In this document: in pieces, positions 28,082 through 30,167 of the stretch | Position numbering within the stretch: position 1 is the stretch's first letter | Layout: the number at the start of each line of letters is the position of its first letter | Assembly: GCA_937991945.1 (NCBI GenBank) | Contig: CALKLO010000039.1 | Location: 1-64,000 of the forward strand | Length of the DNA stretch: 64,000 nt | Source: an uncultured Granulosicoccus sp. | GTDB taxonomy: Bacteria; Pseudomonadota; Gammaproteobacteria; Granulosicoccales; Granulosicoccaceae | Reading direction: 5' to 3' | Program-made: the position numbers and the translations under genes | Notes under the pieces: model-generated | Told to the model about the DNA's origin: nothing | Databases searched by the model: none | What the model saw: only the letters and a program-made list of their open reading frames with translations

Positions 28082-29068
28082 ATGAATTCACCCACTGAAT
28101 CCAGACATGAGCTGAACCCGTCTACTAGAAAGGCAGTTGGATCGCGTTGGACCTATACCAAGCGAGGCTATGCGTTAGCGCAAAGCCTCAGGCAATTCAA
28201 ACGCTACAAAGTCGCCAGCATGATCACCCTGCTAGTTCTGGGTATCACACTGGCACTGCCCGTGATATTGCTGTTTGCTGGCAATGCATTGCAGCAACTG
28301 GGCATGCGTAATTTGGAGGGCGAAAGCCTGACAGCCTACTTACACACCGAGGTCAGCGATTTACAAGGCGCTGAAATGGCGCAAAGTTGGCAGGGCAAAC
28401 TCGGTATCCGCTCTACTCGCTTTATTTCACGCGATGAAGCCCTAGCATTGTTCCAAGAGAATAGTGACATAGGCGACGCCATTGACGTCTTGGGCAGAAA
28501 CCCACTACCTGGCGCAATTATGGTTTTCCCTGACAGCAATACGGTCAGCCCCGAGCGATTCGAAAGCCTCGTTAACGATTTACGCAATCAGGCAGGCGTA
28601 GCTAGAGTGCAAATGGATCTCAGGTGGGTTAAGCGACTCCATGCAGTGGTCTCGCTAATACAGCTTGTCGGAGGCTTATTGGCAGGGTTTCTAACCTTGA
28701 CGGCGCTGCTGGTCATCGGCAATACAATAAGGCTTGAGCTGTTACGAAGGCGTAGTGAAATGGAAGTGGCGAACCTACTGGGCGCTTCAAGCGGCTTTAT
28801 GAATAGGCCCATTATCTATACCGGTGCGTTATACGGCCTACTAGGTGGGTTGATGGCCTGCATTATTGCGCTTATGGCTTTTTACGCCATACGCGAGCCG
28901 GCACATGAGCTTTCATCGCTATACCAAAGTTCATTTCAACTGCTAATGCCCAGTTTTACTCAGATAATTAGTGTGATCTGTGTCTCATTTTTATTAGGGA
29001 TTGTCGGTGCCGTTAGCAGTCTGTACCGACCTTCACAACAGTTAACATCTCGTATATCAAATACATAA
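28082..29068 (+). CDS. ftsX: Cell division protein FtsX
   Basis: FtsX is the membrane partner of FtsE. The 328-residue protein has a polar N-terminal cytoplasmic segment of about 40 residues, a first helix (about 52-74), a periplasmic domain with TRFISRDEALALFQENSD and NPLPGAIMVFP, then three further helices near the C-terminus, with LLRRRSEMEVANLLGAS between them. This is the standard FtsX plan. It lies 26 bases after ftsE. Confidence 0.95.
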   Translation: MNSPTESRHELNPSTRKAVGSRWTYTKRGYALAQSLRQFKRYKVASMITLLVLGITLALPVILLFAGNALQQLGMRNLEGESLTAYLHTEVSDLQGAEMAQSWQGKLGIRSTRFISRDEALALFQENSDIGDAIDVLGRNPLPGAIMVFPDSNTVSPERFESLVNDLRNQAGVARVQMDLRWVKRLHAVVSLIQLVGGLLAGFLTLTALLVIGNTIRLELLRRRSEMEVANLLGASSGFMNRPIIYTGALYGLLGGLMACIIALMAFYAIREPAHELSSLYQSSFQLLMPSFTQIISVICVSFLLGIVGAVSSLYRPSQQLTSRISNT

Positions 29069-29150
29069 TATCAATGTAACGTATTGTATTTTATAATTAT
29101 TTATTTATCTCTATTGGCAATTTATTTGTCAAAAACAGCTAAATTTGAGC

Positions 29151-29179
29151 GGAACTTTGCCGCTAATTAGCACTCTCAT
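29151..29179 (+). promoter_or_regulatory. Sigma-E-type promoter of rpoH
   Basis: GGAACTT (29151-29157) and TCTCAT (29174-29179) are 16 bases apart. This matches the extracytoplasmic-stress sigma factor consensus, GGAACTT with a TCTRA-type -10 at the same spacing as the E. coli rpoE promoter and rpoH P3. The -10 differs at one position from TCTGA. It lies 50 bases before the rpoH start and its -10 falls inside the CIRCE element. The 98 bases between ftsX and 29167 are very AT-rich. Confidence 0.65.
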
Positions 29180-29193
29180 GTGGTGAGTGCTAA
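29167..29193 (+). promoter_or_regulatory. CIRCE element (HrcA operator) upstream of rpoH
   Basis: TTAGCACTC at 29167-29175, nine spacer bases, and GAGTGCTAA at 29185-29193 form an exact match to the CIRCE consensus bound by the HrcA repressor. A sigma-70-like promoter, TTAGCA with an 18-base spacer and TAAAAT at 29191-29196, uses the element itself, so HrcA binding should block it. The same bases hold the -10 of a sigma-E-type promoter. CIRCE normally precedes groESL or dnaK operons. Confidence 0.93.
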
Positions 29194-29228
29194 AATACAG
29201 CTGTCCCGACTGTTGTTGGAGAAATATT

Positions 29229-30098
29229 ATGAGTAACGCCCTGACTGTCAATAAAAATTCTATGCCTATTCCTGTCATCACCGATGACCTGAATAGCTAC
29301 CTGGCAAAAATTGCCAACATCAATCTTCTTAGCGTTGAGCAAGAGCAGGATCTCGCGCGGCGTTTACGCAACAACGAAGATCTCGATGCGGCTCGCCAGC
29401 TGGTTATGTCTCAACTCCGATTTGTTGTGCATATTGCCCGTACCTATAAAGGCTACGGCCTGCCCATGGCAGACCTAGTACAAGAAGGCAACATCGGCCT
29501 AATGAAGGCCGTTAAGCGCTTTGACCCTGATGTCGGTGTGCGCCTGATTTCTTTCGCTGTCCATTGGATCCGAGCTGAAATTCACGAGTATGTGATCAAG
29601 AACTGGCGCATCGTGAAAGTTGCTACTACCAAATCGCAGCGCAAATTATTCTTCAAACTGCGAAGCGCTAAAAAGCAACTCAATTGGTTTAGCCAAGAAG
29701 AAGTAGATGCGGTAGCTGCAGATTTAGGTGTCGACGCCAAAGTGGTTGTCGAGATGGAATCTCGCATGCACGGTCATGACACGGCCTTCGATGCTCCTCC
29801 AGGTGCTAACGAAGATCGCGTAAGTCTGTCTCCGTCTGAATCATTATTTCAGGATCAAGATGACCCATCAACGATTCTTGAACGTGAAGACGGCAGAAAC
29901 AACTCACACGACGGGTTGGCAGCGGGTTTTGAAATTTTGGATGACCGAAGCCGCACCATTTTACAAAGACGTTGGTTAGAGGACGAGAAATCGACTCTGC
30001 ATGAGCTCGCTGATGAATACGGTGTCTCTGCAGAACGAATTCGCCAAATCGAGAAAGCTGCTATGAAGAAAATTAAGACGCATCTCATGGCTGCCTAA
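29229..30098 (+). CDS. rpoH: RNA polymerase sigma-32 (heat shock) factor
   Basis: RpoH directs transcription of heat-shock genes. The 289-residue protein has region 2 motifs VQEGNIGLMKAVKRFDP and LISFAVHWIRAEIHEYV, the RpoH-specific box QRKLFFKLR (137-145), and a region 4 helix-turn-helix ending SAERIRQIEKAAMKKIK. The ATG at 29229 is chosen because GGAG lies seven to ten bases upstream and the product begins like other RpoH proteins; an upstream in-frame start at 29187 would lie inside the operator. Control by both CIRCE and a sigma-E-type promoter is suggested by the upstream region. Confidence 0.97.
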   Translation: MSNALTVNKNSMPIPVITDDLNSYLAKIANINLLSVEQEQDLARRLRNNEDLDAARQLVMSQLRFVVHIARTYKGYGLPMADLVQEGNIGLMKAVKRFDPDVGVRLISFAVHWIRAEIHEYVIKNWRIVKVATTKSQRKLFFKLRSAKKQLNWFSQEEVDAVAADLGVDAKVVVEMESRMHGHDTAFDAPPGANEDRVSLSPSESLFQDQDDPSTILEREDGRNNSHDGLAAGFEILDDRSRTILQRRWLEDEKSTLHELADEYGVSAERIRQIEKAAMKKIKTHLMAA

Positions 30099-30129: not shown

Positions 30130-30167
30130 AGCCATCTTCGACCACGCGTCGGAGGTGGCTTTTTAAT
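30130..30167 (+). terminator. Terminator of rpoH
   Basis: An imperfect stem pairs AGCCATCTTCGAC with GTCGGAGGTGGCT around a short CACGC loop and runs into TTTTAATTT. It begins 32 bases after the rpoH stop. Confidence 0.75.

Follow-up and report, generated by a model that had tools for sequence, protein, structure and literature searches.

A CIRCE operator overlapping predicted sigma-E-type and sigma-70-type promoters of rpoH in Granulosicoccus and other Gammaproteobacteria

Textbook heat-shock control is built on Escherichia coli, in which sigma-32 and sigma-E operate without HrcA; there, rpoH is known to be under sigma-E control. Here, we show that in an uncultured Granulosicoccus sp. a perfect CIRCE, the predicted HrcA site, lies upstream of rpoH and overlaps both GGAACTT-N16-TCTCAT and TTAGCA-N18-TAAAAT, and that these elements keep a fixed spacing in relatives, are conserved beyond specific controls and co-occur with hrcA. 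The 46 bases at 29151-29196 probably form one composite operator-promoter, in which HrcA would block starts by both sigma-E and sigma-70; from the sequence, we infer binding of HrcA and of sigma-E, both start sites, and repression with subsequent release. The evidence suggests that many Gammaproteobacteria join HrcA, the sigma-E response and basal transcription within 46 bases before rpoH. Its two ingredients, CIRCE before rpoH and sigma-E control of rpoH, are both already known; the arrangement is a widespread and well-supported variant of these control elements, and what is less known is that the two overlap in a nested, conserved way.

The window (the whole 64,000-nucleotide stretch analysed) carries the gene order ftsY-ftsE-ftsX-rpoH, with the composite element in the intergenic region between the ftsX stop at 29068 and the rpoH ATG at 29229 (Table 1). 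The rpoH product scores 393 bits against TIGR02392 (cut-off 323) and is 70% identical to the RpoH of its best named relative, a Granulosicoccaceae MAG. CIRCE lies 35 bases before the start codon and, as first proposed, is exact, with 0 mismatches; even when up to 3 mismatches are allowed, the window contains no other match, with 0.04 expected by chance. The coordinates confirm the claimed overlap with both promoter-like sequences, whose -35 and -10 elements are 16 bases (GGAACTT to TCTCAT) and 18 bases (TTAGCA to TAAAAT) apart. GGAACTT-N16-TCTCA fits the sigma-E-type pattern of GGAACTT, 15-17 bases and TC[T/A]NA, and the likeness in spacing to E. coli rpoH P3 holds, given that E. coli rpoH has TGAACTT-N16-TCTGA, which is the sigma-E-dependent promoter P3. 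The sigma-70-like site is weak when considered alone (9/12 matches, with a poor -35), sites as good numbering 8 in 1.35 kb versus 2.6 expected, and the conservation of its -35 is inseparable from that of CIRCE because both share the same bases. A longer RpoH starting from a GTG at 29187 is unlikely, given that this start lies inside CIRCE and that relatives keep MSN or MST after a G-rich ribosome-binding site. An RNA-level role of the CIRCE hairpin was also considered; no Rfam family matched, and transcripts begun at the predicted starts, within CIRCE or immediately past it, would lack at least part of the hairpin.

Table 1. Features of the rpoH locus in the window, and altered operators found in other genomes.
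Feature	Position	Strand	Basis or remark
ftsX, upstream neighbour of rpoH	28082-29068	+	gene order ftsY-ftsE-ftsX-rpoH
Sigma-E-type -35, GGAACTT	29151-29157	+	read from sequence
CIRCE (predicted HrcA site), TTAGCACTC-N9-GAGTGCTAA, perfect	29167-29193	+	sequence and genus conservation
CIRCE left arm, TTAGCACTC	29167-29175	+	sequence
CIRCE spacer, TCATGTGGT	29176-29184	+	sequence
CIRCE right arm, GAGTGCTAA	29185-29193	+	sequence
Possible sigma-70 -35, TTAGCA, the first 6 CIRCE bases	29167-29172	+	consensus scan
Sigma-E-type -10, TCTCA(T)	29174-29179	+	2 bases of CIRCE left arm, remainder in CIRCE spacer
Sigma-70-type -10, TAAAAT, the last 3 CIRCE bases plus AAT	29191-29196	+	T30 conservation
Likely ribosome-binding site, GGAGA	29218-29222	+	sequence; G/A-rich stretch conserved in genus
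rpoH, heat-shock sigma factor, 289 aa, ATG start	29229-30098	+	TIGR02392
Intrinsic terminator-like hairpin 3' of rpoH	30130-30160	+	terminator scan
Altered operator, TTAGCAGTC-N9-GACTGCTAA, exact	L017 2948-2974		at rpoH
Altered operator, TTAGCAGTC-N9-GACTGCTAA, with mismatches	L006 2931; L007 about 2931; genome of L029		
Altered operator at groES	G391:C6:596595-596621 (L163)		

Within the genus, the DNA upstream of rpoH is intact in 17 members, the present genome among them, and all 17 have CIRCE there with at most 1 mismatch. When the named relative L005 is added to these 17, GGAAC (at most 1 mismatch) stands at exactly -16 relative to CIRCE in 17 genomes out of 18, and at -17 in one. An ungapped genus alignment peaks at -16 to -3 relative to CIRCE (GGAACTT.GCCG.T), in CIRCE itself and at +28 to +31, and mean information is 1.3 bits per base at -16 to -1 versus 0.3 at -60 to -21; positions -60 to -28 are near background, and a short A/T block occupies -27 to -25. 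As the original prediction requires, the inverted repeat is conserved in relatives, and so are the sigma-E-type -35 and the two -10 elements, all at fixed geometry. At one locus (L110, 2380-2438, minus strand) a tandem CIRCE pair precedes rpoH, with five bases between the copies and a single mismatch in one of them.

Across the class, 143 of 370 genomes (roughly two fifths of the gammaproteobacterial genomes sampled) and 106 of 272 genera contain GGAAC-N11-CIRCE, versus 0 for a reversed-pattern control. Of the composite loci that were fetched, 29/30 have RpoH directly downstream, the remaining one being a short contig without a match. In a phylum-wide sample, one of 185 genomes outside the class matches (G447), at groES (L170); this locus, L179 and L171 are composite matches at a groES or wrong-strand CIRCE with a chance GGAAC, and do not change the overall picture. 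Forty-eight loci outside the genus have CIRCE at rpoH, drawn from named gamma- and betaproteobacterial genomes or MAGs, a single deltaproteobacterial one and further genomes of the class, and 28 of these have GGAAC 16 or 17 bases before CIRCE (shuffles: mean 1.3, maximum 6). The other 20 do not, and the sigma-E part of the architecture is not universal. Neither a chance match nor confined to one genome, the arrangement is a common gammaproteobacterial rpoH promoter form (betaproteobacterial, Burkholderiales-type genomes included) and no local oddity.

The composite co-occurs with the repressor gene. The HrcA profile PF01628 was found in 142/143 composite-bearing genomes versus 135/227 others (p = 2e-22, a value that overstates the independent evidence because the genomes are related). 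The single exception (G100) was ruled out as an hrcA-less composite genome: it carries the first 74 HrcA residues at a contig end, which PF01628 missed because it covers the C-terminal part, and it also has a groES CIRCE. Hence, all 143 composite genomes carry hrcA, one of them split at a contig end. In a further genome, hrcA (G297:C30:12559-13224) contains one internal TAG stop and is either a pseudogene or the product of a sequencing error.

The groES CIRCE sites, to which the same repressor binds, serve as an internal control for bases inside the operator. Within the sigma-E -10, TC[T/A]NA, the end of the left arm contributes the first two bases, and CIRCE position 12 is the fifth; position 12 is A in 28/29 rpoH sites, chosen by presence of the -35 and not by spacer, versus 6/24 groES sites (p = 3e-8). 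Outside the genus, A12 occurs in 23/28 loci with the sigma-E -35 versus 5/20 without it (p = 1e-4). A T at position 30, which lies just past CIRCE and closes TAANNT, is present at 46 of the 48 rpoH loci outside the genus and at 2 of the 24 groES sites (p = 4e-14), regardless of the sigma-E -35 (27/28 with, 19/20 without). That A12 is tied to the -35 and T30 is not points to two separate promoters, each borrowing operator bases. Together, A12 and T30 provide a base-level signature separating rpoH-type from groES-type CIRCE operators: groES shares the operator and the repressor, and is the other site in this genome, but lacks the embedded A12 and T30, so that these -10 elements are not inside the groES operator. 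The same data bear on the possibility that only the CIRCE/sigma-70 part works here and that GGAACTT is a relic or a coincidence. The 20 CIRCE-rpoH loci without a -35 at 16/17 would fit such a reading, but GGAACTT is among the best-conserved intergenic bases in the genus (1.2-2.0 bits) and the matching A12 is largely restricted to loci that have the -35, and we regard a relic or coincidence as improbable.

Both regulators named in the original prediction were recovered by profile search of the 3.83 Mb assembly. There is one hrcA, adjoining grpE (PF01628, 204 bits), and an rpoE (TIGR02939, 309 bits, cut-off 236), directly followed by a gene for an RseA_N protein (57 bits), which makes an rpoE-rseA pair. 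Given that a GGAAC -35 is common to many ECF sigma factors, the sigma factor at rpoH need not be RpoE, and the genome holds several ECF-like genes. Recognition by another ECF sigma factor is nevertheless about as doubtful as a relic, because rpoE itself is preceded by GGAACTA-N15-TCATA, an independent example of the same promoter type in this genome, and because of the likeness to E. coli P3. The suggested search for further CIRCE sites added groES (1 mismatch), making two convincing sites genome-wide with the perfect one at rpoH; a third candidate (L003, 3 mismatches) falls within a glycosyl-hydrolase-like ORF and is probably due to chance. CIRCE was not found upstream of hrcA-grpE itself (L004, G000:C50), so autoregulation by HrcA seems to be absent here. 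A different genome does have a CIRCE-like site (G077:C77:14923-14965, minus strand) upstream of hrcA (C77:13894-14553), and HrcA may be autoregulated in some class members.

Transcripts arriving from further upstream, either from a promoter-like site at 29042-29069 or by ftsX read-through, could bypass the element. If most rpoH mRNA arose in this way, HrcA on CIRCE would be mainly a roadblock or marginal. This alternative draws on a match to the promoter consensus (TTAACA-N16-CATAAT, 10/12) and on a terminator scan that found none between ftsX and rpoH; yet the site lies where ftsX ends, genus conservation is low at -60 to -28 relative to CIRCE, and we consider this alternative less probable still than the two preceding ones. 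Chance similarity or an assembly artefact has a negligible probability, being at odds with the 0.04 matches expected per window even at 3 mismatches and refuted by conservation across genus and class.

In the composite operator-promoter that we favour, transcription would start near 29185 from the sigma-E-type promoter and near 29203 from the sigma-70-type one. HrcA bound at 29167-29193 would cover both -10 elements, exclude RNA polymerase and silence both promoters by occlusion. The sigma-70 promoter would provide a basal level of rpoH mRNA, to which the sigma-E promoter would add induction by envelope stress, both firing fully only once HrcA is released. The predicted logic is a gate of the form (sigma-E or sigma-70) and not HrcA, under which envelope stress would raise rpoH expression, and with it RpoH, only when HrcA is released. 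HrcA activity in other bacteria depends on GroEL, which is titrated by unfolded protein, or on temperature. In Campylobacter jejuni, HrcA has been called an intrinsic protein thermosensor (PMC8533110).

The suspicion that CIRCE before rpoH had already been noted in some proteobacteria proved right. In Geobacter sulfurreducens, a perfect CIRCE is placed at -51 before rpoH and HrcA control is predicted (PMC545781, Table 8); our locus shares this feature, and the excerpted part of that paper does not mention a sigma-E promoter. The one related locus in our set, from a Geobacteraceae MAG (L084), has neither GGAAC at 16/17 nor AAT after CIRCE. Full-text literature on CIRCE, HrcA and rpoH yielded no account of an overlap with sigma-E promoters; a comparative CIRCE survey by Permina and Gelfand, which lay outside that search, reportedly treats the same groups and may already list rpoH targets.

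E. coli P3 shares GAACTT-N16-TCT.A with the Granulosicoccus element, likewise before rpoH and after ftsX (E. coli TGAACTTGTGGATAAAATCACTGTCTGATAAAA), but the E. coli sequence, TGAACTT-N16-TCTGATAAAA, is without CIRCE, and P3 has no comparable operator overlapping it. A control search of E. coli returned no HrcA match. Among rpoH loci without CIRCE, a sigma-E-type promoter lies no more than 300 bases away in 16/27 (shuffles: mean 0.4, maximum 4), many of them in Enterobacterales. Plausibly, rpoH came under sigma-E control early in the history of the class and some lineages lost the overlying CIRCE together with hrcA; gain of CIRCE in other lineages is conceivable. More broadly, the sigma-E promoter of rpoH may have merged with the operator in Gammaproteobacteria, the former Betaproteobacteria included, with CIRCE bases forming part of the sigma-E -10 and HrcA/GroEL vetoing the induction of RpoH by envelope stress, while E. 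coli retains a bare P3, a proposal that we judge equally likely to stand or fall. If true, the heat-shock cascade taught from E. coli would be a reduced form of a commoner three-input gate.

In Lysobacteraceae and relatives, the operator appears changed in both arms, at rpoH and at one groES (Table 1), and a GGAACTT-like sequence is still found upstream of these altered operators. Such parallel changes suggest a shift of HrcA specificity in this group. At a locus without CIRCE in a gammaproteobacterial MAG (L035, about 2940), GGAACTT-N16-TCTTA is followed further down by GAGTGCTATAGT, possibly a decayed CIRCE half.
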